64,000 nucleotides of DNA from Aliivibrio fischeri (GTDB taxonomy: Bacteria > Pseudomonadota > Gammaproteobacteria > Enterobacterales > Vibrionaceae): the NCBI GenBank assembly GCA_038993745.2, contig CP160630.1, forward strand, positions 496,001 through 560,000, read 5' to 3'. Below, in pieces: positions 23,601 through 64,000 of this stretch. Both the position numbers and the translations under genes were made by a program. A model generated the notes under the pieces. The model was not told the DNA's origin. It saw only the letters and a list, made by a program, of their open reading frames with translations, and did not search any database. The stretch's first letter is position 1; each line of letters starts with the position of its first letter.

Positions 23601-23767
23601 CCGTGATTATCGGTTTAATCCCAATTATGTATGGCTCAGGTACTGGTTCTGAAGTGATGCAACGAATAGCAGCTCCAATGATTGGAGGTATGGCGTCAGC
23701 TTTATTATTAACGCTACTTGTATTGCCCGCGGTATTTAAATTATGGAAACAATCTCAGTGTAAATAA
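20649..23767 (+). pseudogene. cusA: Copper/silver efflux RND pump CusA, frame broken near codon 218
   Basis: The ATG at 20649 follows GAAGGGAAG and starts [19 protein letters not shown]. The first frame stops at 21359. The second, from about 21300 to 23767, continues at [20 protein letters not shown]. Restoring one G at 21299-21300 (GG to GGG) gives a normal 1039-residue HME-RND pump. Twelve membrane segments, the DGAIVMIEN motif of the family, and methionines in RIDMLATG and GPPMIKTENARP (CusA metal path) are present. The pump exports Cu(I)/Ag(I) from periplasm or cytoplasm through CusB and the TolC-like duct. Confidence 0.9.
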
Positions 23768-45406: not shown

Positions 45407-45440
45407 AAAGCCCTTAGATATATTCTGAGGGCTTTTTTTA
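45407..45440 (+). terminator. Rho-independent terminator after lolE
   Basis: AAAGCCCTTAGA pairs with TCTGAGGGCTTT (one G-T pair) around a short loop, followed by seven T. Confidence 0.9.
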
Positions 45441-45549: not shown

Positions 45550-46899
45550 ATGGATATACATGATAATAATCGTATTTCAATGTATGTTATTGGAAATGAT
45601 ATTCCAATTAATTGTCAGGACCTTGATTTTATATATGTTAATAATTTAGATGAATTAACATTAGATTCTCCTTCAGTAATAATTTTAGCTTTAGAGCCTA
45701 AAAAACAGAATCAAGCATTACTCTCCTTACATCAAGATTTTCCACTTTGGAATAGCCAAGTCTATGTTTTACAAGAGAGTACATTGACTGAATACCTATC
45801 TGATGGCATTTTTGATCCCTTCAAAATTACAGCGCAATGGAAACAGCATCAAAGTAAATTATCTTTAATTGAAGAAGAACCAACAGACAAACTACTGGCG
45901 TGGTTATGGCTTGGGTTGGATCGACGTTTATTGCCTTTATGCCAAAGTGAGAAAAGAGAACTATATTATTATCCATTATTACATTGTTATTTTGGTGAGG
46001 ATTATGAGCCTTATCATTATTTTCAATTAGAGGAAAAAAGAGGGTATTTAGAAAAGCTTAATACCGTAGATAAAATAAGATTATGCTCATCTTGTCATAG
46101 CGGACATTTAAATTACATCGAGACTTGCCCCGACTGTAAAAGTACAAACATCGAAGAAATATTATCTCTGCATTGTTTCACTTGTGGTCATGTGGGTAAA
46201 GAGCAACGTTTTGTTAAACAAGATAAACTGCAGTGCCCAAATTGTTTTACTAAGTTACGTCATATTGGTGTTGATTATGATAGGCCGTTGGAGCGCTATC
46301 AATGTCGAGATTGTCAGTTATCATTTTCAGAATCGGTAGTGAGAGTTCGATGTCTTTCTTGTTTCCATATGAATGAAACCAGTGAGTTAATAGCAAGGCC
46401 AATTAATCAATTTAAAGTGGGTGAGCAGGTTAAAGGTCTTATGATGTATGGTCGTCGACCGATAGAGCAAGCGCTCTCACTTAACGGTTTAATTGACCAA
46501 AATTCATTTCATAATTTGTTGGTATGGATAAATAAGTTAGCAATAAGACATGAACAGCACCATTTATTATTAGGGGTTCAATTATCCGGAATTGATAGCT
46601 ACTCAAAAGAGTTTGGTGAGATAAAGCGGATACAGTTAATCGATGAAATATCATCTCATTTTAATGGGTTGCTGAGAGATACAGACATTTGCTGTCAATA
46701 CAATTCAGAGTTGATGTTACTTCTTATGCCAATGACACCAAGAAGTTCGCATAAAATTATTGAAGATAAAATCGCCAATATTGCCAGTGATATTGAGTCT
46801 GAACTGGTGACTCTTCATTTGTACATCTGGGAATTGCCTGACCCTTCATTGAGTAATAGTGCCTCAGTATGGTTAGCTGATTTGCTTAAGGATATATGA
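45550..46899 (+). CDS. Zinc-ribbon protein with degenerate GGDEF domain (cassette A, gene 1)
   Basis: The 449-residue cytoplasmic protein has an N-terminal alpha/beta region (about 1-170, perhaps a pseudo-receiver), a module with six CxxC pairs (179-182, 193-196, 209-212, 229-232, 252-255, 268-271), enough for three zinc sites, and a C-terminal GGDEF-like fold (about 310-400). The catalytic motif is replaced by NSELM (385-389), but RDTD (376-379) stands exactly five residues before it, the place of the RxxD inhibitory site that binds c-di-GMP. The zinc module resembles the Pfam TackOD1 domain (from memory). It overlaps the glycosyltransferase gene (TGATG) and is the likely c-di-GMP receptor for it. 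Confidence 0.75.
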   Translation: MDIHDNNRISMYVIGNDIPINCQDLDFIYVNNLDELTLDSPSVIILALEPKKQNQALLSLHQDFPLWNSQVYVLQESTLTEYLSDGIFDPFKITAQWKQHQSKLSLIEEEPTDKLLAWLWLGLDRRLLPLCQSEKRELYYYPLLHCYFGEDYEPYHYFQLEEKRGYLEKLNTVDKIRLCSSCHSGHLNYIETCPDCKSTNIEEILSLHCFTCGHVGKEQRFVKQDKLQCPNCFTKLRHIGVDYDRPLERYQCRDCQLSFSESVVRVRCLSCFHMNETSELIARPINQFKVGEQVKGLMMYGRRPIEQALSLNGLIDQNSFHNLLVWINKLAIRHEQHHLLLGVQLSGIDSYSKEFGEIKRIQLIDEISSHFNGLLRDTDICCQYNSELMLLLMPMTPRSSHKIIEDKIANIASDIESELVTLHLYIWELPDPSLSNSASVWLADLLKDI

Positions 46900-48212
46900 T
46901 GGCTGAATTTCAATATATTCTTTATTTAATAACCGGTACGTTGACGACATATTGGGAGTTAATGCTAACTTTTTTGCCTATATTATTGCTTGTTGAAGTC
47001 CCGCTTTTATTGCTCATTTTTATTGGTATTTTGCATTGGTCATGGGGAGCGAATGAAGTCAGGAAACATGAACATCCATCAATCAGTTTTATTGTTACCT
47101 GTTATGCAGAAGGTAAAGAGATAGAAAAAACCATTGCTACTTTGGTTGAGCAAATCTATCCAAACCACATTGAAATCTTAGTTGTGATTGATGGTGCTAA
47201 AGAGAATAAAGAGACGTATAGAACAGCTATATCTTTGATTAAAAAATACAAAAATATACCGAATAAGACCATTAAAATTCTTCCTAAATGGCAACGTGGT
47301 GGACGTGTATCGACTCTTAATGCCGGGCTATCAGAAGCAAAATATGAATTGGTTATCAATGTGGATGGAGACACCTCTTTTGATAACAATATGGCGCTTA
47401 AAATGGCGCGAACATTTGCAAATCCTAATGTTATTGCTTGTGGAGGTGCGTTAAGGGTAAGAAATCGAGAGAGCAGTTTCTGGACAAAAATGCAGTCACT
47501 CGAATATATGATGTCGATGCAGAGCAGTAAAACAGGAATGGCAACATGGGGCTTATTGAATAATATTTCTGGTGCATTTGGTGGTTTTAGGCGTTCAGTA
47601 TTGAAACAGGTCGGTGGCTGGAATACACATACAGCAGAAGATCTTGATTTAACGATTCGTTTAAAACAATACAAAAAACGATACCCAGGAACTCGGCTTA
47701 ACTTTTCCCCTAGAGCGATTGGACATACTGATGTACCAGATACATTTAAAGGTTTAATGAGCCAAAGATTACGTTGGGATGGCGATCTTCTGTTTGTGTA
47801 TTTACGAAAACATAAACATGGGTTACGCCCAAAATTGTATGGATGGGGAAGTTTTGGTTACACCTTAGTTTATGGTGTTTTACAAGCTGTATTATTACCG
47901 GTATTAATGACACTGTTTAATTTTTATATATTTATATTTTATCCAACAACAGTGGTTCTCGCAGTCCTAAGCTGTTTATACGTCATTTATTTGGTATTCA
48001 TTGCCATGACCTTTCTTATCTATCTCAGCTTGATTTCCGAACGGATCCAAGAAGACCGTGAAATGCTTTTATGGTTATTGATATATCCATTCTATGCATT
48101 GTTTATGCGGTTTGTTACTGCATTTGCCATGATAAATGAAATTGTTAGACGAAGTCATGAGGAGTCAAGCATGGCTCCATGGTGGGTACTCAAACGTGGT
48201 AAGAGGTTTTAA
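46899..48212 (+). CDS. Processive family-2 glycosyltransferase (cassette A, gene 2)
   Basis: The 437-residue inner-membrane protein has an N-terminal membrane segment (about 22-48), a GT-A domain with VVIDGAKE (about 98), VNVDGDTSFD (DGD, 156-158), TAEDLD (about 245-250) and QRLRW (289-293), and three to four C-terminal membrane segments. D, DxD, ED and QxxRW together mark processive beta-glycan synthases such as BcsA, PgaC, Alg8 and HasA. The polymer cannot be named. An ATG one codon upstream is also in frame, but 46899 matches the copy B start. It should make and export a polysaccharide under control of gene 1 with help from gene 3. Confidence 0.85.
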   Translation: MAEFQYILYLITGTLTTYWELMLTFLPILLLVEVPLLLLIFIGILHWSWGANEVRKHEHPSISFIVTCYAEGKEIEKTIATLVEQIYPNHIEILVVIDGAKENKETYRTAISLIKKYKNIPNKTIKILPKWQRGGRVSTLNAGLSEAKYELVINVDGDTSFDNNMALKMARTFANPNVIACGGALRVRNRESSFWTKMQSLEYMMSMQSSKTGMATWGLLNNISGAFGGFRRSVLKQVGGWNTHTAEDLDLTIRLKQYKKRYPGTRLNFSPRAIGHTDVPDTFKGLMSQRLRWDGDLLFVYLRKHKHGLRPKLYGWGSFGYTLVYGVLQAVLLPVLMTLFNFYIFIFYPTTVVLAVLSCLYVIYLVFIAMTFLIYLSLISERIQEDREMLLWLLIYPFYALFMRFVTAFAMINEIVRRSHEESSMAPWWVLKRGKRF

Positions 48213-48217
48213 CGATT

Positions 48218-49263
48218 ATGGATGTTAAATTTCATTTAGAAAAAAAGAATAAACCGACCTCAGACAACGGTATGAAAGTGTTGTATGGAATGGAAAAACG
48301 TGGAGCGTATCGTTTTCGATGGTATCTGATACTGGCTATTATTCTTAGTCCTATATTTTTTATGATTTACACCTTTGCAAAACAACATTTATTTACTGTA
48401 GCTCCTGGAATAATCACCACAGGGCCTGTGATCATCACAGCATCTCAAAATGGAACAGTAAAGTTAATTGATGTGAAAGACAGTGAATTTGTTTTGGAAG
48501 ATCAATTGCTAATGGAATTAGATGCGCCCATTTTAGAGCAAGAAATTGAATTTATAGAAAATGAATTAGAGCAATTATACCAAGAGCAAACGCAAAAAAT
48601 TACAGAAGATTTTGGTCCGTATATTAGTGCGATTGGAGCTGCAAAGCTTAATTTAAAAAAGATAACGAAAATCAAAGTCAATTATGATCAATACGCAAAA
48701 GAGGGGAAAGTATCCCAAGTGGATTATGCCGCAATTGTTGGTATTTATAACACCGCACAAAATAATCTTACTAATGCTTATATTGCATTGAATCAAGCTG
48801 AAATCGCACAAAAGCAACGCCTATTGGCTGGCGGTGTTGCTCAAGTTACTCGTGAATTAAACCAAGCATTAACAACGAAAAAAAATCAACTTGATGCATT
48901 GTCAATTAGAGCTCCGTATATGGGATTGGTGATTGATATTAATGCCTTGAAAGGACAACAAATTAGCATTGGGGATCCACTGGTCACTGTATCACCAGAT
49001 GTTGCTCCTTATGTCATTAGTTATTTAGACCCTAAGCACATTGAAAAAGCAAAACTAGGAGCATTAGTAACGGTTAAACTTCCTAATGGTAAAAAAGTAG
49101 AGGCGAGAGTGTCATCTGCCATAGGTTTAACCTCAAAACTTCCTATTCAGTTAGCAAAACCTTTTGAAGGTGCTAAAGCTTTACTCAAGGTTAAAATTAC
49201 ATTTTTAGGGGGTTATTAGAAAAAGAGTGGGTAGAAGGCATGCCGGTAGAGGTGTATTTTTAG
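48218..49263 (+). CDS. HlyD-like membrane fusion protein (cassette A, gene 3), frameshift at C-terminus
   Basis: The protein has a cytoplasmic N-terminus (about 1-38), one membrane segment (about 39-58), a lipoyl/barrel-sandwich region (APGIITTGPVIITA...RAPYMGLVIDINAL) split by a helical hairpin (about 105-210), and a beta domain. The open frame stops at 49219 with ITFLGGY. Restoring one G in the GGGGG at 49208-49212 extends it to 49263 with EKEWVEGMPVEVYF, which matches the end of copy B (EQWVEGMPVQVSF), giving 348 residues against 347. It is analogous to the fusion-protein part of Alg44 and may lead the polymer through the periplasm. Confidence 0.8.
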
Positions 49264-49400
49264 TATTTTTATTAAGTTAGTATAATTAATGAACAACGTT
49301 AGTTTTTACCTATCAATACAATAACTAAAACTGATTAGTAATAAAGAGAAGTTGTTCTTATTATACAGAGATACTTTGCTGTGTATCGGATAGAAAAATA

Positions 49401-50903
49401 ATGACAATTTCGGACAACAATACCATCGTAATTTTTGGCGCTTCGGGCGATCTCACTTATCGAAAGTTGATCCCGGCTTTATATCATTTGTATGCCAGTA
49501 ACCAACTTCCTTCTACGTTTTCCATTTTAGGTGTAAGCCGAACTCAATATGATGACGAGTCATATAGAGAAAAAATGAAACAATCATTAAGAGAGTTAGA
49601 GAAAACGGAACCTGAAATTTTAGATGCGTTTTGTCATCATTTGCATTACCAAGCACTGAACACATCAGATGTTGATGAATATTCAAAATTGGTGTGTAAA
49701 TTAGACCAGCTTGCTGATAAATACCAATTAGAACAACAAAATACACTTTTTTACTTGGCAACACCGCCAAGTCTTTATGGTGTGATCCCTTCGTGTTTAG
49801 CCGCTCATGGATTAAATGATGAATCTAATGGCTGGAAACGTTTAATCATCGAAAAACCATTTGGTTATGATTTGGCGTCAGCGCTAGAACTTGGTAAACA
49901 AATTCATCAATATTTTGAAGAGCATCAAATATATCGTATTGACCATTATCTTGGTAAAGAAACCGTTCAAAACTTATTAGTACTGCGTTTTTCAAATGTA
50001 ATGTTTGAACCTCTGTGGAACCGTAATTTTATTGATTATGTTGAGATCACAGGCTCTGAGTTTCTTGGAGTAGAAGAGCGTGGTGGTTACTATGATGGCT
50101 CAGGGGCAATGCGTGATATGTTCCAAAACCATTTGTTACAAGTATTGGCAATGGTTGGAATGGAATCGCCTTCAGCAATTAATGCAGATTCGATGCGTGA
50201 TGAGATTGCTAAAGTATTACAAAGCCTACAGCCTCTGACAGAACAAGATCTACGTAATAACCTTGTATTAGGTCAATATACTGAATCTGAAGTAAGAGGG
50301 CAGTTTTTACCAAGTTATCGTGATGAACATGGTGTGGCAGATGACTCTCGTACTGAAACTTATGTTGGCTTAAAAATGTTTATCAATAACTGGCGATGGA
50401 ATGGGGTTCCATTTTATGTCCGTACTGGTAAACGTCTTCCAACCCGTGTAACAGAAGTTGTTGTTCATTTTAAAAAGACGCCGCATCCAGCGTTTGCAGA
50501 AAATGCTCCTGAAAATAAATTAGTGATCCGCATTCAGCCTGATGAAGGTATTCAAATGCGTTTCGGCTTGAAAGAGCCAGGTTCAGGCTTTAATGTGAAA
50601 GATGTATCAATGGACTTCCATTATCAATCACTGGCAGAAACGCAAATGCTGACAGCTTATGAACGTTTGTTATTAGATGCGTTAAATGGAGATGCTACGT
50701 TATTTGCACGAAGTGATGCTGTAAATGCATGTTGGAAATTTGTTCAACCGATACTCGATTTTAAACAAGACCCACAAGCCTTATTTGGCTATGCATGTGG
50801 CACTTGGGGACCAAAAGAAGCCGATCAATTATTGGAACGTGATAATAGAAAGTGGCGTTTTCCTTGTAAGAACTTAACAGATACGGATTACTGTGAATTA
50901 TGA
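49401..50903 (+). CDS. zwf: Glucose-6-phosphate 1-dehydrogenase
   Basis: The 500-residue enzyme has the coenzyme motif [17 protein letters not shown] near the N-terminus and the active-site [13 protein letters not shown]. It oxidises glucose 6-phosphate to 6-phosphogluconolactone with NADP, the entry of the oxidative pentose phosphate path. It overlaps pgl by four bases, and gnd follows, so the three genes of the oxidative branch form an operon. A 137-base gap separates it from cassette A. Confidence 0.97.
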
Positions 50904-51622
50904 TTAACCATAAAATATTTGAAACACCACAAGATGTAGTGACAACGCTAGCGGATGAGCTAAAGCAATTAGGTGAGCAAGGAAAACCTGTTCACATTTC
51001 ATTATCCGGTGGTAGCACACCAAAGATGCTTTTTTCACTTTTAGCATCAGAGGCTTATGCTAAAAATATTCAATGGAATAATCTTCATTTTTGGTGGGGG
51101 GATGAGCGTTGCGTTACTCCTACTGATCCTGAGAGTAATTATGGAGAAGCAAATGAATTATTGTTCTCTCGTATCGATATTCCGTTAGAAAATATTCATC
51201 GTATTGAAGGCGAAAATGAACCTTTGGAAGAAGTGAATCGCTTCTCTAATGAGATGAGAGAATTGATTCCGTTAGAAAATGGAATCCCAGTTTTTGATTG
51301 GATTTTATTAGGCGTAGGAGCAGATGGTCATACTGCATCATTATTTCCTAATAAGACAGATTATAACGATACAAACTTAGCCGTTATTGCGACTCACCCA
51401 GAGTCAGGTCAACAAAGAGTATCGAAGACAGCAAAAGTATTAGAAGCAGCTAAACGTATTAGCTATCTAGTGTTAGGTAGTGGTAAAGCTGAAATTGTTC
51501 AAGAAATTCATACTAAACCAGTTAATGAGTTGCCATACCCGGCAGCAAAAATTCACTCAGCATTGGGTGAAACTGAATGGTTTTTAGATATAGATGCAGC
51601 GGCTCGCATTATTAATAAATAG
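50900..51622 (+). CDS. pgl: 6-phosphogluconolactonase
   Basis: The 240-residue protein has the family motifs [36 protein letters not shown] and [15 protein letters not shown]. It hydrolyses 6-phosphogluconolactone to 6-phosphogluconate. The start overlaps the zwf stop (ATGA) and gnd follows after 36 bases. Confidence 0.95.
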
Positions 51623-51658
51623 AAGTTCGAGCATAACGCAAATTTTTGGAGTAAAGAT

Positions 51659-53107
51659 ATGAAAGGCGATATTGGCGTAATTGGTCTTGCAGTAATGGGC
51701 CAGAACCTAATTCTAAATATGAACGATCACGGTTATAAAGTGGTAGCACATAACCGAACTGCTGAAAAAGTAGATGAGTTCTTACAAGGTCCTGCAAAAG
51801 GGACAAATATTGTTGGTGCATATTCGCTTCAAGAGTTAGTCGATAAATTAGAATCACCACGCAAAATTATGTTAATGGTACGAGCTGGTGATGTTGTTGA
51901 TTCATTTATCGACAAGTTGGTTCCTTTATTAGATAAAGGCGACATCATCATTGATGGTGGTAATACAAATTTCCCAGATACTAACCGTCGTGTTGCTGCG
52001 CTGAAAGAGAAAGGAATTCACTTTATTGGTTCTGGTGTTTCTGGTGGTGAAGAAGGCGCACGCTTTGGTCCTTCGATTATGCCTGGCGGTTCACCAGAAG
52101 CATGGCCATTTGTTAAACCAATTTTTCAAGCAATCTCAGCAAAAACTGAAAATGATGAGCCTTGTTGTGATTGGGTTGGTAACGATGGTGCTGGCCACTT
52201 TGTAAAAATGGTTCATAACGGCATTGAATATGGCGATATGCAGCTTATCACCGAAGCATACCAGTTCATGAAAGACGGCCTTGGTATGACGCATGATGAA
52301 ATGCAGTCTGTTTTTATTGAGTGGAACAAAACCGAGCTAAATAGTTACTTAGTAGAAATCACTTCAGACATCTTAGGTTATAAAGATACAGATGGTGAAC
52401 CATTAGTAGAAAAAATTCTTGATACTGCTGGCCAAAAAGGCACAGGTAAGTGGACAGGAATTAATGCATTAGATATGGGGATCCCATTAACGCTAATTAC
52501 AGAATCTGTATTTGCACGCTGTTTATCATCATTAAAAGATCAACGTGTAGAGGCTGAAGAGTTATTTGGTAAGAAAGAATCAATTGTTGAAGGTGATAAA
52601 CAAGTTTGGATAGAAGCATTACGCCAAGCACTTTTAGCATCGAAAATCATCTCATATGCACAAGGCTTTATGTTGATGCGTGAAGCGTCAAACGAGAATG
52701 GTTGGGATCTAAATTACGGTAACGTGGCATTGATGTGGCGTGGTGGTTGTATTATCCGTTCTGCATTCTTAAGTAATATTCGTGATGCGTACGATATTGA
52801 TCCTGAACTTTCCTTTTTAGGTTCAGATAGCTACTTCAAAGGTATTCTAGAAAATAGTATGTCTGCATGGAGAAAAGTAGCAGCAAAATCAATGGAAGTA
52901 GGGATCCCAATGCCATCAATGACATCAGCATTGACTTTCCTTGATGGTTATACAACCGCTCGTCTTCCTGCAAACTTACTGCAAGCACAACGTGATTATT
53001 TTGGTGCTCATACTTACGAGCGTGTAGATAAACCAAAAGGTGAGTTTTTCCATACGAATTGGACAGGTAAAGGCGGTGATGTATCATCGACAACGTATAA
53101 CTCGTAG
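51659..53107 (+). CDS. gnd: 6-phosphogluconate dehydrogenase, decarboxylating
   Basis: The 482-residue enzyme has the NADP-binding start GDIGVIGLAVMGQNLILNM, IIDGGNTNFPDT, VGNDGAGHFVKMVHNGIEYG (catalytic Lys and substrate-binding region) and the C-terminal block near FHTNWTGKGG. It makes ribulose 5-phosphate, CO2 and NADPH. GGAG lies upstream of the ATG. It closes the zwf-pgl-gnd operon before a strong terminator. Confidence 0.97.
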   Translation: MKGDIGVIGLAVMGQNLILNMNDHGYKVVAHNRTAEKVDEFLQGPAKGTNIVGAYSLQELVDKLESPRKIMLMVRAGDVVDSFIDKLVPLLDKGDIIIDGGNTNFPDTNRRVAALKEKGIHFIGSGVSGGEEGARFGPSIMPGGSPEAWPFVKPIFQAISAKTENDEPCCDWVGNDGAGHFVKMVHNGIEYGDMQLITEAYQFMKDGLGMTHDEMQSVFIEWNKTELNSYLVEITSDILGYKDTDGEPLVEKILDTAGQKGTGKWTGINALDMGIPLTLITESVFARCLSSLKDQRVEAEELFGKKESIVEGDKQVWIEALRQALLASKIISYAQGFMLMREASNENGWDLNYGNVALMWRGGCIIRSAFLSNIRDAYDIDPELSFLGSDSYFKGILENSMSAWRKVAAKSMEVGIPMPSMTSALTFLDGYTTARLPANLLQAQRDYFGAHTYERVDKPKGEFFHTNWTGKGGDVSSTTYNS

Positions 53108-53131
53108 CTGTTACCTTTCATCGATAAAATA

Positions 53132-53167
53132 AAAAAGCCCCTAACTTGTATGAGTTAGGGGCTTTTT
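53132..53167. terminator. Bidirectional terminator after gnd
   Basis: A perfect 15-bp stem AAAAAGCCCCTAACT/AGTTAGGGGCTTTTT has a six-base loop and lies between the convergent gnd and DedA genes. Confidence 0.93.
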
Positions 53168-53180
53168 ATATCGAATTAAT

Positions 53181-53846
53181 TTAACAGATTTTTTTACGAC
53201 GGTATTTTTTTAAACAGTAACCACTGATAAAACTACATACTGCAATCGCCAGTGTGATGACTGGTGCTGCCATTAGTGCCATGGTGATATATTTCGACAG
53301 CTTTTCCGGTAAAAATGATAATGAATAACCGAAACCAGTTAGTAATAAAATCCAAATAATAGCGCTCATCCAAGCAAAATAATGGAAGCGAGCTGCTTGT
53401 TGCATTCGTAGTCCCATCATTAACGGTAAAAGAGGGCGAACAACAGGAATAAAACGAGCTACAAAAAGAGCAATTAGCCCATGTTTAGTTAACAAAGAGT
53501 CAACTGTCTGTAATCTGTGTGGTGGAACTGCATTAATCCATTTCTGAATTGTTGGAAATTTATGTAACCAACGACCTTGTATAAAAGCCAATTGACTACC
53601 AATTGCCGCGGCCATGATAAGACCGGCAACAATTACAGGGTAGCTAATTACATTAGCAGCAGCTAGAGAACCTGCAAGAATAACAACACTATCGCAAGGT
53701 AGTGGTGCAGCTGGAATAAAAGCACTTTCTAACCAAATAAATAGAATCAAACAAAAGTAGATCATCGTCATACTTGCTGGGTTTTGTAGAATTGTGAAAT
53801 CTTGTTGCCATAAAGCCGTTAGAATCGAAATAAATGAATCAAACAT
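53181..53846 (-). CDS. DedA/VTT family membrane protein
   Basis: The 221-residue protein has four to five membrane segments and the DedA motifs: ESAFIPAAPLPCDSVVILAG, a re-entrant region, and ARFIPVVRPLLPLMMGLRM, with the F-x-R-x-x-P-x-x-R pattern. DedA proteins take part in membrane homeostasis, and some flip undecaprenyl phosphate or phospholipids. The ATG at 53846 has GGAG seven bases upstream; longer in-frame starts exist but add a poorly supported N-terminus. Confidence 0.88.
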   Translation of the reverse strand: MFDSFISILTALWQQDFTILQNPASMTMIYFCLILFIWLESAFIPAAPLPCDSVVILAGSLAAANVISYPVIVAGLIMAAAIGSQLAFIQGRWLHKFPTIQKWINAVPPHRLQTVDSLLTKHGLIALFVARFIPVVRPLLPLMMGLRMQQAARFHYFAWMSAIIWILLLTGFGYSLSFLPEKLSKYITMALMAAPVITLAIAVCSFISGYCLKKYRRKKIC

Positions 53847-54469
53847 CGCCATTCTCCAGACGAAAATTAAGCCGAAACTTGTTGTGACAGATAGGTCGAG
53901 AGTAAGGTAAGTGATAGATAAAGTCACTAAGAATTTTCACTGTCATAAAAAGTTCACATAAGGTAGATAAACTAGATGATTCAACAAGTTGGGTCAACAT
54001 TTCCTTACAAATGTGCGTAAATTGTTACCAATAGATAGTAGGTTTACATTTTTGGTGAAGCGATAGAGACACTTATCGAAAATTAACTGTTTTTATATTT
54101 TCGTTTTTAGAAATAAAATTAATGACAATTATTATATGTAATGCAATGTTGCATATAATATCAAAAAATATATTTTTATATAAACACTGGTAGTCTCCTA
54201 AGCTATTGTATTTAATGGTTTTTATTGTGTTGGTGATTATTCTTCAACTGTTCCCTCTAATTCAAACAATATAATTAACTAAGTAATTACGTATAATTTG
54301 ATTGATTATTCGTATGGAGTATATTTCTCTCACCTAACTAAACCAATTAATCAAATCAATAATAATAGATTTATTGTTAGTTAGATTTTGTTTCATATAA
54401 CCATGTTTACTTCAAATTAATGAAGAGAGCATTAAGTAGTGTTAATCATTAACTACCGGAAATAAAAAG
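53847..54469. other. AT-rich intergenic region without a gene
   Basis: About 620 bases separate the divergent DedA and outer-membrane barrel genes. No credible frame is present. It has an imperfect inverted repeat CTAACTAA...TTAGTTAG (about 54335-54386) and a TGCAATGTTGCATATA stretch near 54140-54160, which may be operators. The length suggests complex regulation of the outer-membrane gene or a small RNA, but neither can be shown from the sequence. Confidence 0.5.
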
Positions 54470-55092
54470 ATGAAAAAAATATATTTAGCTGCGTTTGTAT
54501 TTGGTGTTTTTTCTGTATCGTCTTCAGCTGAAATGATGCCTTATGTTGGGGAAATATTGGTATTGGTGGTATTACTTCACCAGATGCTGATATTGACAAT
54601 ATGAACTATTCTCAAGAATCAGGAAAGTTTGCTTGGAGCTTGAATACTGGTCTATTATTTAATTCAAAAATGAATAATAAATTTCAATACGGTGCAGAAG
54701 TGAGTTATTCGACTTATGCAACAAATGAAAATCGTTTTGAAAATTTGAAGTTTGACTATGATGGCTACAACATTGCTGCATTAGGTGTAGCAAAGTACAA
54801 CTTCAATAATAAGTGGAGTATTTTTGGTAAAGCGGGTGCAGCTTATACAGTTCAAGAGCTAACAAGTAATGTAAACGTTTTTAATAAAAAAGAATCGAAA
54901 GTATTGCCAAAAATCGGTTTAGGTGCATCGTATAACATTACAGATAACTTTGCGATTAACGCTAGCTTCGAGCATATCTTTGGTGATGACTTAGCCGAGT
55001 TTACGAATAAACCAAATAACCATCAATTGTCGGACTATACAAATGTAGGATCGGTAAGTACCATGTATATTGGTATGGGTTATTCATTCTAA
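54470..55092 (+). pseudogene. OmpA-like beta-barrel outer-membrane protein, frame broken after signal peptide
   Basis: The ATG at 54470 starts MKKIYLAAFVFGVFSVSSSA, a signal peptide, then EMMPYVG. The frame breaks at the GGGG at 54548-54551. Restoring one G gives VGGNIGIGGITSPDADID and joins the frame that runs to 55092, 207 residues in all. The mature part alternates as in an eight-strand barrel with conserved glycines (IGLGASYNITDNFAINASFE) and ends in YSF, the C-terminal aromatic signal for outer-membrane assembly. The function is not known. It precedes the ToxR-like regulator on the same strand. Confidence 0.75.
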
Positions 55093-55402
55093 TTATTTAT
55101 AGTCTTATTTTTTAAGTTTAGATTTTACCTTGTAAATAAGACGTAAACTAATTAACAATGAAGTAGGGTATTGCCTATTTCTGTTATGAAATAGGCTGCT
55201 CTATATTTGCTCAAAAATTAAGTATAAACAGCATTTCTGTATTACGTTTGTTCTTTTTGTGTTTATACTTTGTTTTTTATTGGTTTTGGTTTTGAACAAA
55301 GTTAACGAATATAGATAAGTTGGTCTCAATATATTGACAATAAAGATGAATAGGTTTATTTATGACTTGTATTTAATTCGATAACTGTTAAGTCAGGATG
55401 AT
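55093..55402. other. Intergenic region with hairpin and spaced inverted repeat
   Basis: A 9-bp stem GCCTATTTC/GAAATAGGC (55173-55196) may end the outer-membrane protein transcript, though no T run follows. Further on, AAGTATAAAC (55220-55229) and its exact complement GTTTATACTT (55261-55270) lie 31 bases apart, upstream of the ToxR-like gene. No small gene is visible. Confidence 0.55.
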
Positions 55403-56012
55403 ATGGTTTTTAAACTCAATGAAATCTATTGGGATCCAGCAACAAAAAAATTGTACGATACGCTAGAAGATGCAGTTAATGGTAATAACGAATATGGTTC
55501 AACAACGCCTTTAGTTTCTGCAATTCTGACTTTGTTAATAAAAGAACATCCTTCTATTTGTAAAAATGAACATATTAAAGATGCTCTTTGGGGACTCAGT
55601 GGATATCAAATGAAAGCATTCCTCAGTTAATTAAAAGAACAAGAGTATCAATAAAAGATACGAATAGACATGTTATCGAAAATGTAAAAGGCAATGGTTA
55701 TAAAATAAACAATGTAGAAGAGATTAGAATAAATTCAAATAGCATACAATGCACAGAGAAAAAAAGTCACATTCTAAACTAAAAGAAACATCTATTTTTT
55801 TATTTTCAATCATCATTTTCATTTTATCTAGTTCAGCATTAATCTTTTGTATAGAAAAACATGTGTTTTACGATCTAATTCCTTTAGAAGAGATAAAAAA
55901 AGTCAAAGATTTTGATTTAATTAAAATCTCTGAAGATAAGTTTTTAATTAAGACTAAAGACCAAGAGTGTGAATTGAACCTTAAAAATAAAATTGCTCGA
56001 TGTAAAATATGA
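55403..56012 (+). pseudogene. ToxR-like membrane-bound transcriptional regulator, frame broken twice
   Basis: Three overlapping frames form one protein of about 203 residues once a G in the GGGG at 55590-55593 and an A in the seven-A run at 55759-55765 are restored. The N-terminal part (about 1-105) is an OmpR-type winged helix without receiver (SAILTLLIKEHP, DALWG, ESIPQLIKRTRVSIKDTN, VKGNGYKIN). A membrane segment follows (about 130-152, IFLFSIIIFILSSSALIFC), then a short periplasmic tail with two cysteines (ECELNLKNKIARCKI). This is the layout of ToxR, TcpP and VtrA. It overlaps the next gene (ATGA), which looks like its ToxS/TcpH/VtrC-type partner. The family is inferred by layout. Confidence 0.7.
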
Positions 56013-56398
56013 AAAGTCAAATATCGAAAACATTAATTGTTTTTTCTGTAATTAATTTACTCATAATAATAATATGGCATAAATTTTATCGAGTCGATTT
56101 AGTTGGAACAATAACAATAAATGAAAAACAAGTTAACTATGTAAAGTATGAAAAGTATTTAGATTCTGTCAATGTAGTTAATACTAAGTATAGTGATGAT
56201 ATAGCTGTTCCTGCAACAAGTACCGCAACAAAGTATTTTGTCGATTATAATTTATCTCAAGGTAAATTATATGCATATGATGGAACAAATTATTATATTT
56301 TAAATATATATTCATTAGGGGACTCTTGTTTTGTAACTCTTCAAGCAGGAAGTGGTAGTCTCAAAAAAATTGGTTTTTCTTGCAAATACAATAATTAA
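56009..56398 (+). CDS. ToxS/TcpH/VtrC-like membrane partner protein
   Basis: The 129-residue protein has an N-terminal membrane segment (about 8-25, TLIVFSVINLLIIIIW) and a periplasmic domain of about 100 residues that is rich in beta strands and Thr/Tyr, with two cysteines near the C-terminus (DSCFVTLQAG and GFSCKYN). Sequence identity to a named family is not recognised. It overlaps the ToxR-like gene by four bases (ATGA), the standard arrangement of regulator and partner in co-component systems such as ToxR-ToxS and VtrA-VtrC. A joint sensory role in the periplasm is inferred. Confidence 0.6.
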   Translation: MKSQISKTLIVFSVINLLIIIIWHKFYRVDLVGTITINEKQVNYVKYEKYLDSVNVVNTKYSDDIAVPATSTATKYFVDYNLSQGKLYAYDGTNYYILNIYSLGDSCFVTLQAGSGSLKKIGFSCKYNN

Positions 56399-56450
56399 TT
56401 TATTTTCAATAATTTGATTGTTATTTATAGAGTGTGTTTAGGGTACATAA

Positions 56451-58141
56451 TTGAATTCAACAATTTCTTTCTTATATCAACCAAAAGTACAGAATGGAAG
56501 TATTATCAGTGTTGAAGCTTTACTAAGAGTTCCTGGTGTTACAAATATTGAGAGCTATGTTTCGATGGTAACAAATAAACCTTTGTTTGATTATACAATA
56601 ATAAGGAAAGTATTATCAGATAGAAGGGAATATCACGAAAACATTGGTTACTCTTTCCCTGTATCTATAAACATTTCGATACAGAGTTTAGAATCAGATT
56701 ATTTTATTAATAAAACATCTAAGTTATTGAAAAATGAACCTAATGTAACGTTGGAGATAACTGAAAATGACAGTTATTTATCTTTAGAACGTGTTAAAGA
56801 ATCGATGGGAATACTTAAATCATTAGGTGTTAAGTTTTCTTTAGATGACTTTGGTAAAGGCTTTTCAGATATTGAACAAGTATTGTCATTAGACCTTGAT
56901 GAAATCAAAGTGGATGGTTCTTTAGTTAATGATATTGAAAACAATTTTTATAAGTTTAGGCATTTAAAATATACGCTAGATGAATTAGAAGATATCAGTA
57001 ACTTTAATATTGTTATTGAGCGGGTTGAGAATAAAAAACAAGTTAACTTAATTGAATCCCTTGGAAAAAAAGTATCATACCAAGGATACTTTTTTTATAA
57101 ACCAATGAATTTATTTGACTTAACAATCGCGACACCAGAACCGCATAAAGAAGAAAAACATGAACCTAAGTTATTGTTAGAAAAATTGATTTATGAGTTG
57201 ATCAAAACAGATAATGATAATAAGTGCGCACAGTTAGTTAATGATATTCACTCTGTAGATATATTTAATAATCTTGGTTCTAAGGTTTGTGACAGTTTAA
57301 CTATAACAGAAGTAAAAAAAAGCATACTAAAAAAATACAATAAGATAGCGCTTAACCCGAATAGTCCTGAAAATTTGTTTTTCAAATCATATCTTAATTG
57401 TATGAGTCGCTTAGTCATAATCCGAGATTCTGAAGGTAATGCTTTATTCAATAATCAAGCCCATATTAATTTTATGAATGTGGACTTGGTAGGAATGCCT
57501 CTAGAAAGCATTTATGAAAAATTTGAACAATACGAAGGCTGTATTGCAATAGATAAGGAGTTGATTGAATCAAAATCCAACTTCTTAGCGGTAAGAGAAG
57601 TTGTCGACTTTGATGGGCAAACTAAATCGTATTATACGTTTAGGCAGAAAATTAACCATTATGGAAAAACACTAATAATTACGATTGTTTATGATGAAGA
57701 TGATAGAGATTCGTTTCCTAGGGATGCCTTAACAGATTGTTTTGATAGAACCATTTTGAACAGCTACTACATGAATCAATTTAACATGGTTGCTTTCATT
57801 GATATGGATGGGTTTAAAAAGATTAATGATAACTTCAGTCATAAGCTAGGTGACGACTGTTTAAGCAAATTTGTTATGTATTTAAAACATGAATTAAGAA
57901 AGGAAGACCTTATCATTAGATACGGTGGTGATGAATTTTGATTTTTACTCAATGGGATGACCGACATACATTTGAAAGTCGCTTAAATCTGATAAGGAAT
58001 AAAGTCGAAAAGCTGTTTAAATCAAACAACATAGACTTGTCATTTTCATATGGCATTGAAGATTTATCAAAAGGTATGGAAATTGCGATTAACTGTGCGG
58101 ATGAAAAAATGTATGCTGACAAAAGCAGAAAATTACAGTGA
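56451..58141 (+). pseudogene. EAL-GGDEF c-di-GMP turnover protein, frame broken inside GGDEF
   Basis: The cytoplasmic protein starts at TTG 56451 (GGG upstream) with an EAL domain (about 8-225: VEALLRV, SINISIQS, LEITEND, LDDFGKGFSD, IKVDGSLV, IERVE, YQGYFFYKP), then a linker and PAS-like part (about 300-420), and a GGDEF domain (about 425-563). RYGGDEF is present and the RxxD inhibitory site RKED lies five residues before it. The frame breaks just after GGDEF; restoring a T at 57936-57939 joins LIFTQWDDRHTFESR to 58141, 563 residues. EAL-then-GGDEF is the reverse of the usual order. Both activities look possible. It overlaps the next gene by four bases. Confidence 0.8.
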
Positions 58142-59484
58142 GTTCTATTAGATATAAAGCATTAAGACTAAAAAGAATCGGCATTGTAGTGATGCTATCG
58201 TTTATTTATATGAGTGTCGGGTATTTTATTTTTGATTTAAGTAATAACCTTACTGAAGAAAGAAATAAGACGAATATGCGACACTTATTGAAAAAATATG
58301 AAAGTGAAATTTTAATAAAAGTAAATGAATACTTAACTTTATCAAAGGTTTATAAGTATATGCTTTTTAAGAATGATTCTTTTATATCAAAAAACGACTT
58401 CACTTCAATATCTAAGAACTTAATCGAAAAAAACAAAGTAATTAAGAGTTTACAATTAGCGCCTAATGGTACAGTGACATATGCATATCCTGAGAAAGGA
58501 AATGAAAACGTGTATATTGATTTGTTTGCAGATAAAAAAAGAAGGGGAGATGCTATTTATGCCAGAGATAATAGAGTAAGTATCATGTCTGAACCACTTG
58601 AGCTATTTCAAGGTGGGATTGGACTAATAATTCGGACTCCTATTTTTGTCGGCAAGGATTTTAATACATTTTGGGGTTTTAGCATCGTTATACTTAAGGT
58701 AAATGATTTTTTAAATACTTTATCATTACCTGAGTTATGTGATGGTGGATATAACTATAAACTGAGTGTTATACAAAAAAATAGCAATAACAAAATTGTT
58801 ATTAGTGAATCATCATCTGATGACTTAGTAAATGCAGTTGAACATGAATTTAGTGTTCTTAATCAAAATTGGCTGATATCAGTGGGTTCTCCAGGTAAAT
58901 GGATTAATGAATTAGAATATACCTACAAAACGTATATTTTAGTTTTCTTTGTCTTTGCTTTATCACTTATAACCTACATGTTTTACCGGTTGTTGATAAA
59001 AAAAGAAAAAATGTATGAACTGTCTTATATTGATTCCTTAACAGGCCTTTATAATCGAAGGGCATTTGATAAAGATGCTAAAAAGAGTTTTAAGAGTTCA
59101 ATTTTGTTTTTCTGTGATTTAAATGGTTTTAAAAAGATCAATGATATTTATGGTCATGAAGTCGGAGACCAACTACTCATTGAAGTATCTAAAAGGATGC
59201 GCTCTTTTATCGATAGTAAAGGAACTATATATAGATTAGGCGGTGATGAATTTTCAATACTCTTAAATAAGAATGAAAATGTTGATGTTCATGTATTTAT
59301 TAATGAGTTATTTGAAATGATATCTGAGTCTTTATCAATTAGTGATGTTGTAATAAATATAGGCATTAGTACAGGTTACAGTGTTTATCCAGTTGATGGC
59401 TTAATTCTAGAGGATTTAATCCGTATAGCTGATAAAAGAATGTATCAAGCAAAGTTTCAATATAAAAATAGAAATAAAGTATAA
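58138..59484 (+). CDS. CHASE-GGDEF membrane diguanylate cyclase
   Basis: The 448-residue protein starts at GTG 58138, overlapping the previous stop. It has a membrane segment (about 12-33), a periplasmic CHASE-like sensor (about 34-265, with IKSLQLAPNGTVTYAYPEKG and LIIRTPIFVGK), a second membrane segment (about 268-290) and a GGDEF domain (about 300-445) with DSLTGLYNRRAFD, FFCDLNGFKKIND and RLGGDEFSILL. The active site is complete, and the inhibitory-site position reads DSKG, so product inhibition is unlikely. It should make c-di-GMP in response to an unknown small periplasmic ligand. It lies just before cassette B. Confidence 0.88.
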   Translation: MSSIRYKALRLKRIGIVVMLSFIYMSVGYFIFDLSNNLTEERNKTNMRHLLKKYESEILIKVNEYLTLSKVYKYMLFKNDSFISKNDFTSISKNLIEKNKVIKSLQLAPNGTVTYAYPEKGNENVYIDLFADKKRRGDAIYARDNRVSIMSEPLELFQGGIGLIIRTPIFVGKDFNTFWGFSIVILKVNDFLNTLSLPELCDGGYNYKLSVIQKNSNNKIVISESSSDDLVNAVEHEFSVLNQNWLISVGSPGKWINELEYTYKTYILVFFVFALSLITYMFYRLLIKKEKMYELSYIDSLTGLYNRRAFDKDAKKSFKSSILFFCDLNGFKKINDIYGHEVGDQLLIEVSKRMRSFIDSKGTIYRLGGDEFSILLNKNENVDVHVFINELFEMISESLSISDVVINIGISTGYSVYPVDGLILEDLIRIADKRMYQAKFQYKNRNKV

Positions 59485-59602
59485 ATCTAAAGTTCTTTTT
59501 CTTATTTATCTTATATAGATGGTCATTTCATTTTTGGAGTGACTATTTTTTATCAAACGTTAATACCAATTATTTTTGGTTTGCTGCACAAATGGTTATT
59601 TT

Positions 59603-60955
59603 ATGAAGATGGAAAGTTCAGTGTCTATTCCTGTTTATGTTATCGGTGAATCTAAATCAGTGTATGGAAGTGATATTAATATAATTCATGTTAAGAGTGC
59701 TGATGCTCTTTTATTACACGAGCCAGCTATTTGTATTGTGTCATTACCACCTGAAGAACAAGATAGAACATTAGAATATCTGCATTCTAAATTACAGCTA
59801 TGGAATTGGCATGTATATGTATTAAAAGCGAGTAAGTTAAGCTCTCATCTTTCCGATGGAGTATGGACACCGACTAATGTGGCTGAACAGTGGATGCTAC
59901 ATAAAGCGAAGTTAGCTCTGATAAAAGATGAACCTCTGGATAAACTTCTTGCTTGGCTTTGGTTAGGTACTGAAAGGTGTTTAAAACCATTGTGTGATAG
60001 CAGTAAAAAAGAACTTTATCACTACCCTCTGATTACTGCGTACATTGGTTATAAAAATGCGTCCAATAATTATCTTCAATTAGAAACTAAAAGAGGTTTT
60101 CTAAAGAAAGAGTATACAGTGGATCGAATTCGATTATGTCCATCGTGCAATAGCGGCCATCAAAACTATATTGAAACATGTCCATCATGTAAGAGTGTCG
60201 ATATAGAAGAGATGGTTTCTCTACATTGTTTTACTTGCGGGCATGTAGGGAAACAAGACCACTTTATGCAACGTGGGAAATTAGAGTGTCCTACTTGTTT
60301 AACACAGTTGCGTCATATTGGAGTGGATTACGACAGGCCGCTTGAAAGCTATAAGTGTTTAGATTGTGATTATAGTTTTTCAGAATCGGTTGCTCGTGTT
60401 CGTTGTTTGTCTTGTACCGACAGTAATGAGATTGATGATTTAATCACCCGTCATATAAGTACCTATAAAGCAGGCGATCAAGTAAAAAACTTAATGATGT
60501 ATGGTCATCAATCTTTTCATCAAGAGTTGACGTTAAAAGGACTTATTGACGAGGATTCGTTTGATAATTTGCTTGTATGGATAAATAAATTGGCAATCCG
60601 TCATCAACACTCACATATTTTATTAGGTATAAAGCTCGCAGGTATTGAAGAATATTCTGCTCAATTTGGTGAAACTAAATTGATGCAATTGATTGACCAG
60701 ATATCAAATGATCTTAACTCAATACTGCGTGATACCGATATTTGCTGCCAGTATCGATCAGATATGATCCTATTATTGATGCCGATGACTCCAATTGACT
60801 CATTACCGGTGTTGCAAAAGAAGATTGAACTTATTGCTGGAAAAATTGAGTCAGAGTTAGTGCTTCTGAATGTTCATATATGGTCTTTGCCTAATGTATC
60901 CCTTCAGGATGATGCTGCAAAGTGGTTAGTTGATGAGCTTGGTACTATTGAGTAA
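59603..60955 (+). CDS. Zinc-ribbon protein with degenerate GGDEF domain (cassette B, gene 1)
   Basis: The 450-residue paralogue of cassette A gene 1 has six CxxC pairs at exactly the same residue numbers when translation starts at 59603, which supports this start over one 27 bases upstream. The GGDEF fold (about 310-400) has RSDMI in place of the catalytic motif, but RDTD is kept five residues before it. The N-terminal region (VYVIGES...SDGVWTPTNVAEQWM) and the region KLLAWLWLGTERCLKPLC are clearly related to copy A. It overlaps the glycosyltransferase gene by one base. A c-di-GMP receptor role for the adjacent synthase is inferred. Confidence 0.75.
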   Translation: MKMESSVSIPVYVIGESKSVYGSDINIIHVKSADALLLHEPAICIVSLPPEEQDRTLEYLHSKLQLWNWHVYVLKASKLSSHLSDGVWTPTNVAEQWMLHKAKLALIKDEPLDKLLAWLWLGTERCLKPLCDSSKKELYHYPLITAYIGYKNASNNYLQLETKRGFLKKEYTVDRIRLCPSCNSGHQNYIETCPSCKSVDIEEMVSLHCFTCGHVGKQDHFMQRGKLECPTCLTQLRHIGVDYDRPLESYKCLDCDYSFSESVARVRCLSCTDSNEIDDLITRHISTYKAGDQVKNLMMYGHQSFHQELTLKGLIDEDSFDNLLVWINKLAIRHQHSHILLGIKLAGIEEYSAQFGETKLMQLIDQISNDLNSILRDTDICCQYRSDMILLLMPMTPIDSLPVLQKKIELIAGKIESELVLLNVHIWSLPNVSLQDDAAKWLVDELGTIE

Positions 60956-62268
60956 TGAGTGAATTTGAATACATTTTTTACTCAATAATAGGGATGATAA
61001 GTGAAGATACAGAATTAATATTTATATTATTTCCAATCATGATCTTAATCGAAATGCCTCTATTTATTTTAGTTGCGAGCGGTGTTTTGCGTTGGTCTGT
61101 TAACTTATCAGAACTAGAAGCAACGTCATGTCCTTCAATTAGTTTTATTATTACTTGTTATGGAGAAGGGGAAGCCATTAGTGAAACGATCGATACACTT
61201 GTTGAGCAGGTTTATCCTAATAAGATAGAAATTTTAGTTGTAGTGGATGGTGCCAAACAAAATGCAGAGACTTATCAAGCAGCCTTATACGGTGCTAAAA
61301 AACATCAGCATAAGCAAATGCGGACAGTTAAAGTCATCGCTAAATGGCAAAGAGGTGGCCGTGTATCTACATTAAATGCTGGTTTATCGGAAGCAAAAAA
61401 TGATTTAGTCATTAATGTTGATGGAGATACTTCATTTGACAACAACATGGCATGGGAAATGGCTAAGCAGTTTTCAGATCCAAACGTTTTAGCCTCTGGA
61501 GGTGCACTTCGTGTCCGAAATTGGGATGCTAATTTATTAACCAGAATGCAATCCCTTGAATATATGATGTCCATGCAGACGGGTAAAACCGGAATGAGTA
61601 ATTGGGGAGTCTTAAACAATATTTCTGGTGCTTTTGGTGCATTTCGGATTGAAGTGATTAAACGAGTTGGTGGTTGGGATACTCATACGGCTGAAGATCT
61701 CGATTTAACCATGCGATTAAAACAATATAAAGGACGGCATCCAAATAGTCGTTTAGCATTTACTCCTCATTCTGTTGGCCATACTGATGCTCCAGATACG
61801 TTAAAAATATTGTTAATGCAGCGGTTACGATGGGATGGCGATTTACTTTTTCTCTTTTTAAGAAAACATAAACAGGGACTAAGCCCGAGTTTATTAGGTT
61901 GGGGCAACTTTGTTTATACATTAGTTTATGGTGTGATTCAAAACGTGGTTCTACCGTTATTAATGGCATTGTTTAGTTTATATGTTTGTTTAAGTTATCC
62001 AATTACATTTGTACTCTCAATGCTTTTGTTTATTTATCTCATATACATAACATTTATTGTTTTAACTTTTTCAATTTACATTGGTCTTGTTTCAGAAAGA
62101 CCTAAAGAAGATATTAAATTATCAATATGGTTACCTCTTTATCCTATATATGCATTTTTTATGAGATTAATAACTGCATTTTCAATGGTGAATGAAATAA
62201 CCAGAAGAAGTCATGAGGAGTCAAGCATGGCACCTTGGTGGGTACTTAAACGTGGAAAAAGATTTTAA
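60955..62268 (+). CDS. Processive family-2 glycosyltransferase (cassette B, gene 2)
   Basis: The 437-residue protein equals copy A in length and layout: an N-terminal membrane segment, then VVVDGAKQ, VNVDGDTSFD, TAEDLDLTMRLKQY, QRLRWDGDLLF and C-terminal membrane segments, ending SSMAPWWVLKRGKRF as in copy A. The catalytic D, DxD, ED and QxxRW are all intact. The strong conservation of the catalytic core and divergence elsewhere suggest that both copies are under selection. The product is a polysaccharide of unknown type. Confidence 0.85.
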   Translation: MSEFEYIFYSIIGMISEDTELIFILFPIMILIEMPLFILVASGVLRWSVNLSELEATSCPSISFIITCYGEGEAISETIDTLVEQVYPNKIEILVVVDGAKQNAETYQAALYGAKKHQHKQMRTVKVIAKWQRGGRVSTLNAGLSEAKNDLVINVDGDTSFDNNMAWEMAKQFSDPNVLASGGALRVRNWDANLLTRMQSLEYMMSMQTGKTGMSNWGVLNNISGAFGAFRIEVIKRVGGWDTHTAEDLDLTMRLKQYKGRHPNSRLAFTPHSVGHTDAPDTLKILLMQRLRWDGDLLFLFLRKHKQGLSPSLLGWGNFVYTLVYGVIQNVVLPLLMALFSLYVCLSYPITFVLSMLLFIYLIYITFIVLTFSIYIGLVSERPKEDIKLSIWLPLYPIYAFFMRLITAFSMVNEITRRSHEESSMAPWWVLKRGKRF

Positions 62269-62273
62269 ATATT

Positions 62274-63317
62274 ATGAAAGTAAAATTTCACTTAGAAAAA
62301 GATAAGCAACCAACATCTGATAATGGAATGAAAATTATATACGGAAGTGCTAAGAGAGGCGGATATCGATTTCGTTGGTATTGTATTTTAGCATTAGTGT
62401 TAAGTCCTATATTAATAATGGCATACGTTTTTTTTCAACAATATATACTTACTTTAGCTCCAGGGATTATTACAACAAGTCCAGTAGTGATAACCGCTCC
62501 TCAAGACAGTATGGTTACAGCTATAAATGTCAAAGAGGGGAATGAAATTTCCTATGGTCGAAATGTTTTAGAGTTAAATGATCCTGTATTAGATTCAGAT
62601 ATTCAGTTTATTAAAACAGAGTTAACTAATTTAAATAAAAGGAAGTCTAAAGTACAACATGATCTAAAGTCTTATTTGTTAGCAATTAGAAATGCGAAAG
62701 ATAATTTAGAAAGCATAAAGAAAATAAAACTGAATTATGACAAGTTCATTAAAGAAGGGAAAGTATCACAAGTTGATTATGCCAATATCATTGGTATGTA
62801 CAATAGTGCGCAAAATACGTTAACTAGTGCGGACATAGGATACCAAAAGGCACTATTAGACAGTGTGCAAGTTGAATTAGCTGGTGGTATTGCTCAAGTA
62901 GTTCGTTCATTAAATCAAGAGTTAGTTACTAAGTTAAGTCAGAAAAAACTACTAAGTATTCATTCTCCATATGACGGAAATATCTTAGAAATTAATACGG
63001 TAGTAGGACAAAGAATAAAAAAGGCTGATGTATTAGCGACGATTGCATCTAAGGCTGATCCATTTGTCATAGCGTACTTAGAACCTAAATTTATTGAAAA
63101 GGCGAAAGAAGGTAGTGTCGTTACCGTCATACTTCCAAATCGTGAAAGATTAAAGGGTAACGTATCTTTAGCTATCGAAACCACAACTAAATTACCAGCT
63201 CAGTTGGCTAAACCGTTTGAGGGACCAAAATCGTTGTTAAAAGTTAAAGTCACATTAAAGAAAAAAATAACTAAAGAGCAATGGGTAGAGGGGATGCCAG
63301 TACAAGTTTCTTTTTAA
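62274..63317 (+). CDS. HlyD-like membrane fusion protein (cassette B, gene 3)
   Basis: The 347-residue protein has a short cytoplasmic N-terminus MKVKFHLEKDKQPTSDNGMK, one membrane segment (about 38-58), barrel-sandwich halves (VVITAPQDSMVTAINVKEGN and IHSPYDGNILEINTVVGQRI) around a helical hairpin (about 110-210), and a beta domain ending QWVEGMPVQVSF. The gene begins five bases after the synthase stop, the same spacing as in copy A. It is intact here, which shows the expected end of the broken copy A. No outer-membrane exporter follows. Confidence 0.85.
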   Translation: MKVKFHLEKDKQPTSDNGMKIIYGSAKRGGYRFRWYCILALVLSPILIMAYVFFQQYILTLAPGIITTSPVVITAPQDSMVTAINVKEGNEISYGRNVLELNDPVLDSDIQFIKTELTNLNKRKSKVQHDLKSYLLAIRNAKDNLESIKKIKLNYDKFIKEGKVSQVDYANIIGMYNSAQNTLTSADIGYQKALLDSVQVELAGGIAQVVRSLNQELVTKLSQKKLLSIHSPYDGNILEINTVVGQRIKKADVLATIASKADPFVIAYLEPKFIEKAKEGSVVTVILPNRERLKGNVSLAIETTTKLPAQLAKPFEGPKSLLKVKVTLKKKITKEQWVEGMPVQVSF

Positions 63318-63625: not shown

Positions 63626-63699
63626 CTCTATAAAATAAAAACACTTACTATTATAAATTAGAATCTTAATATTCTATTAGGATTATGGACGCGTGTAAT

Positions 63700-64000
63700 A
63701 TGAAAAACATTTCATTGAGAAATAAAATACTCTTCCTAGTAGCATTTAATGCAACAGGTTTATTTGTGGCTCTTAATATTATTTATATGAACTATGTAGA
63801 TAATGATAAGACTGAACAATTTCTATTTAGACAGGTAATTCAATCGTCAGAAATTTTTGATAATTTCGAAAAGAAACTAATTTCGTTAAGAAGAACAGAT
63901 TTAGCTTTGATATCTATTCGATTTGAAGATGAAGAAGAGGTAACAGCAAGAGATAAGTTAATCTATGACATTAATTCATTATTAAATTCATATAGTGAGT
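63700..64000 (+). CDS. Membrane sensor or chemoreceptor-like protein, N-terminal part
   Basis: The open frame runs off the right edge after about 100 codons. It begins MKNISLRNKILFLVAFNATG, with a membrane segment at about 9-28 followed by a helical region that should be periplasmic (SSEIFDNFEKKLISLRRTDL). This is the usual start of a chemoreceptor or of a membrane sensor kinase or diguanylate cyclase. The start could also be the in-frame ATG at 63685. The signalling domain lies outside the window, so the class is unknown. Confidence 0.6.
   Translation, partial: MKNISLRNKILFLVAFNATGLFVALNIIYMNYVDNDKTEQFLFRQVIQSSEIFDNFEKKLISLRRTDLALISIRFEDEEEVTARDKLIYDINSLLNSYSE

Follow-up and report, generated by a model that had tools for sequence, protein, structure and literature searches.

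Two probable Mxd exopolysaccharide cassettes in one Aliivibrio fischeri genome

A stretch of 64,000 nucleotides from Aliivibrio fischeri (contig CP160630.1 of assembly GCA_038993745.2, positions 496,001 to 560,000 of the forward strand), referred to here as the window, contains two homologous three-gene cassettes, both on the + strand and with identical gene order. The locus raises the question of what the three genes encode, whether such a system is already known and how the two copies are related. A preliminary description of the window, made from the sequence alone, proposed a zinc-containing receptor for cyclic dimeric GMP (c-di-GMP) with a degenerate GGDEF domain, alongside a family 2 glycosyltransferase (GT2) synthase and an HlyD-like fusion protein, all in two diverged versions, and homology upheld this. 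It had not recognised the system as described, which proved mistaken: the trio is the already known core (mxdABC) of the little-studied Mxd system of Shewanella oneidensis, whose MxdA is reported to bind c-di-GMP. The probability that both cassettes are Mxd homologues, comprising synthase, adaptor and c-di-GMP receptor, was put at roughly 0.8.

Relationship to the Shewanella Mxd system

A published mxd-promoter primer (Table 2 of PMC3691769) matched one of 129 Shewanella genomes. In the Shewanella locus L113, parts of five mxd-promoter primers matched from 3801 to 4229 (reverse-complement coordinates), gene 1 began at 4235, and genes 2 and 3 came after it in the same order as in the window. 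Since the published primers sit just upstream of the gene 1 homologue, with genes 2 and 3 next, the trio was identified as the Mxd core. The window proteins were 35% (gene 1), 50-54% (gene 2; copy 1, 50%; copy 2, 54%) and 30-31% (gene 3) identical to those of L113. According to published work on Shewanella, mutants in mxdA or mxdB are impaired in aggregation (PMC3691769), MxdB is a glycosyltransferase required for biofilm, and MxdA is a c-di-GMP-binding effector that contacts CheY3 as well as the CheY proteins of E. coli and V. cholerae. Among the matches listed from the open-licence literature (titles and abstract starts), no report describing these genes in Aliivibrio was recognised, and Mxd was unmentioned in the main text of the searched reviews and survey on c-di-GMP effectors and synthase-dependent polysaccharides.

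The mxdA homologues occupy 45550-46899 (copy 1, 449 aa) and 59603-60955 (copy 2, 450 aa, with the longest frame from 59576; PF18551, E 3.1e-70). In profile searches gene 1 matched TackOD1, a zinc-ribbon domain, and a GGDEF-like domain; in copy 1 an N-terminal alpha/beta domain is followed by TackOD1 at residues 106-290 and by the degenerate GGDEF-like domain, with RxxD at 376-379. The RxxD motif was kept in 81 of 83 homologues and GG[DE]EF in none, in an alignment that leaves out the split frames of L073 and L106. Six CxxC pairs were as conserved as RxxD, each cysteine being present in 81-83 of the 83. Gene 1 had no GAF match at E 1 and no membrane helix by hydropathy, and none of the six cassette proteins had a PilZ match at E 1. 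A REC-like nature of the N-terminal domain found little backing. When it was compared with PleD, WspR and DgcR, whole models aligned from residue ~2-9 on, but with root-mean-square deviations of 9-21 Å. Profiles set against an alignment of six REC sequences gave nothing, and there was no Pfam REC match among 49 N-terminal sequences, which were the rows used of 79 available.

The mxdB homologues are located at 46896/46899-48212 (copy 1, 438 or 437 aa by the choice between two adjacent start codons) and 60955-62268 (copy 2, 437 aa). Both match GT2 models of Pfam and NCBIfam; the nearest named model is the PgaC/IcaA equivalog, against which they scored 163 and 151 bits, under its cut-off of 422. 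The motifs in copy 1, counted from the second ATG, are D98, DxD at 156-158, ED at 247-248 and QRLRW at 289-293. The acidic catalytic residues and QxxRW were invariant in all 81 aligned sequences; L042, L043 and L083, which are split or cut, are left out of this alignment and still counted as present below. The mxdC homologues, HlyD-like membrane fusion proteins, lie at 48218-49219 (copy 1, 333 aa; PF13437, E 3.9e-9) and 62274-63317 (copy 2, 347 aa, intact; PF13437, E 3e-12).

Conservation of the trio

A scan of genome contigs with a pair of short peptide patterns gave 413 relatives. Counts over the named loci cover the best 80 of these and so lean to close relatives. These 80 loci came from Aliivibrio, Vibrio, Photobacterium, Shewanella, Aeromonas, Pseudoalteromonas, Rheinheimera, Pseudomonas, Stutzerimonas, Vreelandella and other genera. 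Gene 2 followed gene 1 in 79 of the 80, a few with split frames, and gene 3 was present in 77; the exceptions, L083, L086 and L093, stop at contig edges. The question posed in the preliminary description, whether the trio is a conserved unit outside Aliivibrio, was thus answered in the affirmative.

Draws of genomes from the order and the class were also scanned. TackOD1 exceeded its cut-off in 17 of 295 genomes of the order draw and in 19 of 369 of the class draw. A GT2 match, down to 31% identity, stood beside TackOD1 in every one of the 27 loci that exceeded the cut-off in the genus and order searches, and in 15 of the 19 new such loci of the class draw. Six divergent TackOD1 genes (L016, L123, L125, L127, L128 and L132) are 25-29% identical to gene 1 and adjoin a GT2 match at 31-35%. 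Because such divergent genes keep this neighbour, the TackOD1-GT2 pair may, judging from sequence, long predate the close Mxd group. The L143 locus (genome G705) is the second TackOD1 locus of its genome, has no adjoining GT2 match, and may represent another use of the domain.

Clustering of 755 flanking frames for a further partner gene gave no family at a fixed place across genera; the top cluster reads as a mixture of ABC transporters, L046 having been examined with Pfam. In that locus, from Photobacterium lutimaris, a LapD-like protein (LapD_MoxY_N, HAMP, GGDEF, EAL) and an ABC transporter are encoded upstream of the trio (3604-7828). On account of these two genes, a c-di-GMP-controlled adhesin system may be the neighbour of the Mxd trio in P. 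lutimaris.

The two copies and their surroundings

As the preliminary description had stated, the two cassettes share gene order, the overlap of genes 1 and 2 and a five-base gap before gene 3; their proteins are 56% (gene 1), 63% (gene 2) and 53% (gene 3) identical, far above chance. The near-equal lengths that it gave (449/450, 437/437 and 348/347 residues) stood except for gene 3 of copy 1, which has 333 residues and does not reach 49263 in one frame. At least one copy was present in 9 of 14 Aliivibrio genomes, and both in two. In trees of all three genes (the gene 2 tree partly seen), copy 1 of the window formed one clade with five loci at the lolE-zwf site, and copy 2 formed a separate clade with four loci in the copy 2 setting, with support of 98-100/89-100 for the two clades. 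Vibrio sinensis joined the copy pair at a position that varied between genes. Since the two clades are separate, the divergence of the copies predates that of the sampled species of each type, and by their sequences they are a long-standing pair, each kept at its own fixed site. The trees lent no support to a recent tandem duplication.

Copy 1 sits between lolE and zwf. A terminator-like hairpin with a T run (45407-45435, + strand, 12 pairs, from a consensus scan) separates lolE from copy 1, which suggests that the latter is its own transcription unit; such matches in the region are near chance, with three found against a shuffle mean of 2.3. In another Aliivibrio genome (G004, locus L116), a DDE transposase gene (PF13612; 6830-7720, - strand) lies between genes 2 and 3 of the copy 1 cassette.

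Copy 2 is flanked by genes for a CHASE-GGDEF protein and a chemoreceptor. The first, directly upstream (58138-59484, + strand), is diguanylate-cyclase-like by Pfam, with its GGDEF motif intact, and flanks copy 2 in all four other copy 2 loci. The second, downstream in the same four loci, encodes a methyl-accepting chemotaxis protein of 547 aa that starts at 63685 on the + strand and continues beyond the window (63685-63999 within it), the frame having been read into L114; its homologue in L036 carries MCPsignal (PF00015). Further upstream, Pfam identified an EAL-GGDEF gene (56451-57941, + strand) that also neighbours copy 2 in L034, L035 and L036. It is cut short right after the GGDEF motif by a one-base difference at ~57937 from A. 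fischeri emors.2.1 and has 496 aa in the window versus 563 in L036. No c-di-GMP riboswitch was found upstream of either cassette: Rfam models had no match at gathering scores across the window and none at E 0.5 within 53900-59700.

Proposed machine, rival explanations and related systems

Each cassette is proposed to encode MxdA, MxdB and MxdC, the central components of an exopolysaccharide machine of the Mxd type. MxdB, by its motifs a processive GT2 synthase, would assemble the polymer from cytosolic sugar nucleotides and move it across the inner membrane. MxdA would be a soluble c-di-GMP receptor resembling PelD, one that senses and does not make c-di-GMP, because the RxxD inhibitory site is kept and the catalytic signature is lost; its zinc-ribbon domain is presumed to be a scaffold that relays the signal to MxdB. 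MxdC would extend from the inner membrane into the periplasm and pass the polymer to an outer membrane duct, by analogy with relatives most likely of the TolC family. Because copy 2 comes with c-di-GMP enzymes and a chemoreceptor of its own, different signals would probably trigger the two machines, and the chance that the copies have separate inputs was rated about even. A local circuit linking copy 2 and the chemoreceptor is plausible by analogy, because contact between MxdA and CheY has been reported and the chemoreceptor gene adjoins this copy.

Several observations weigh against the assignment of both cassettes to Mxd. Genes 1 and 3 are only 30-35% identical to their Shewanella homologues. 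The 122-aa gene that follows gene 3 in L113, presumably mxdD from its position, was matched at E 1e-4 neither in the window nor in any of the 80 loci, and the source genome gave no match either, an empty result that, lacking a positive control, shows little; as the 80 loci include five from Shewanella, mxdD may not be a core part of Mxd. In the class draw, L119, L133, L134 and L143 had no GT2 match beside TackOD1, the latter three being partial domain matches. The RxxD motif, moreover, is found in ordinary GGDEF domains too, and in Aliivibrio gene 1 might instead encode a regulator that senses zinc or redox state, or a docking platform for CheY, with RxxD as a structural leftover. The conservation of the CxxC cysteines, equal to that of RxxD, the reported contacts of Shewanella MxdA with CheY proteins, and the chemoreceptor gene next to copy 2 would fit such a protein. 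This alternative was considered improbable in view of the c-di-GMP binding reported for Shewanella MxdA and the retention of RxxD although the catalytic signature drifts freely. A final difficulty concerns copy 1, whose gene 3 is frameshifted near the 3' end and stops at 49219. The window is one base shorter at ~49209 than L032, from A. fischeri emors.2.1, and the gene encodes 348 aa in two near-identical copies, L032 and L115; the difference may be a real mutation or a sequencing error. If real, it would accord with copy 1 being a decaying pseudogene operon in the source strain and copy 2 alone working, and the lost C-terminal residues are fairly conserved (F347 in copy 2 numbering, for example, in 79 of 82 aligned rows). 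This, too, is unlikely, if less so: copy 1 retains unbroken genes 1 and 2, which share 99-100% identity with their G002 counterparts, the damage is confined to the last stretch of gene 3, and the second one-base loss, at 57937, leaves room for assembly error.

The route through the outer membrane was weighed separately. In 21 of 77 loci, mainly from Pseudomonas, genes 2 and 3 are separated by a gene whose product joins a TolC-like channel to a TIM barrel resembling glycosidases such as PgaB (C-terminal domain); the fusion model covers 17 of the 21 proteins. Because this fusion gene sits between mxdB and mxdC in relatives, the case for exit of the Mxd polymer through a TolC-type channel was judged evenly balanced. 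The link comes from pseudomonad-type relatives, whose gene 3 matches weakly (78-124 bits), no OEP gene was found in the remaining 56 of the 77 loci, and the TolC-docking tip motif is unconserved in gene 3. MxdC could conceivably meet another exporter, such as a porin of tetratricopeptide repeats (TPR) plus barrel encoded elsewhere, as in the alginate and poly-N-acetylglucosamine (PNAG) systems, the TolC fusion then being a pseudomonad peculiarity. The missing tip motif and the 56 loci, in which no OEP or glycoside hydrolase profile matched, would agree with this, and classic synthase-dependent systems do combine a TPR domain with an outer membrane pore (PMC7112194). We nevertheless regard it as doubtful, since the TolC-family gene lies within the operon in 21 loci, five open frames of the source genome match OEP strongly and could fill the role, and no family holds a fixed place beside the trio across genera, the neighbours not having been annotated singly for TPR or barrel domains. 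One of the five frames is the TolC-family gene of the window, which together with an AcrB-type pump gene is found ~22-28 kb upstream of copy 1 (17914-19173 and 21317-23767, respectively).

The Mxd system of the window is a genuine, recurrent and duplicated one, but known already in Shewanella. Of the new leads, the most interesting is the fusion of a TolC-like channel to a glycosidase-like domain, which was met in relatives and not in the window. A wider proposition, for and against which we would lay equal odds, is that Mxd forms a separate class of synthase-dependent machine beside those for cellulose, acetylated cellulose, PNAG, alginate and Pel, composed of a soluble zinc-ribbon c-di-GMP receptor, a GT2 synthase, an HlyD-type adaptor and a TolC-family channel, the last fused in pseudomonads to a trimming glycosidase, and that A. 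fischeri has two such machines answering different signals. If true, a polysaccharide would be exported by a type I-like route. The recurrence across several gammaproteobacterial families, the duplication in A. fischeri and the pseudomonad fusion would raise Mxd from a curiosity of one genus to a secretion route of wider occurrence.

The closest known system is Mxd of S. oneidensis (mxdABCD), with the same three gene families in the same order and an MxdA reported as a c-di-GMP effector; the Aliivibrio genome differs in having two copies, no detectable mxdD, other neighbours and proteins of 30-54% identity. The Alg8-Alg44 pair of the alginate system also combines a GT2 synthase, an inner-membrane-anchored fusion-protein domain and c-di-GMP gating, but Alg44 unites the PilZ receptor and the fusion domain, whereas in Mxd the receptor is encoded apart, as a soluble zinc-ribbon/GGDEF-like protein. 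In the Pel system, PelD similarly uses the RxxD site of a degenerate GGDEF domain as c-di-GMP receptor (PMC8461298); it is membrane-bound, carries a GAF domain and has a GT4 enzyme as its partner, while gene 1 encodes a soluble TackOD1 protein and adjoins a GT2 gene. The BgsBA system for mixed-linkage beta-glucan in rhizobia has a c-di-GMP-activated glycosyltransferase synthase and an HlyD-like protein, but there c-di-GMP is bound by the C-terminus of the synthase, and the bicistronic bgsBA operon has no separate receptor gene (PMC9495663). In the PNAG system (PgaABCD), the parallels are the PgaC/IcaA model, the best match of gene 2 though below its cut-off, and the C-terminal domain of PgaB, which the TIM barrel of the pseudomonad fusion resembles; the outer membrane part of that fusion is TolC-like, not PgaA-like, and the receptor differs.

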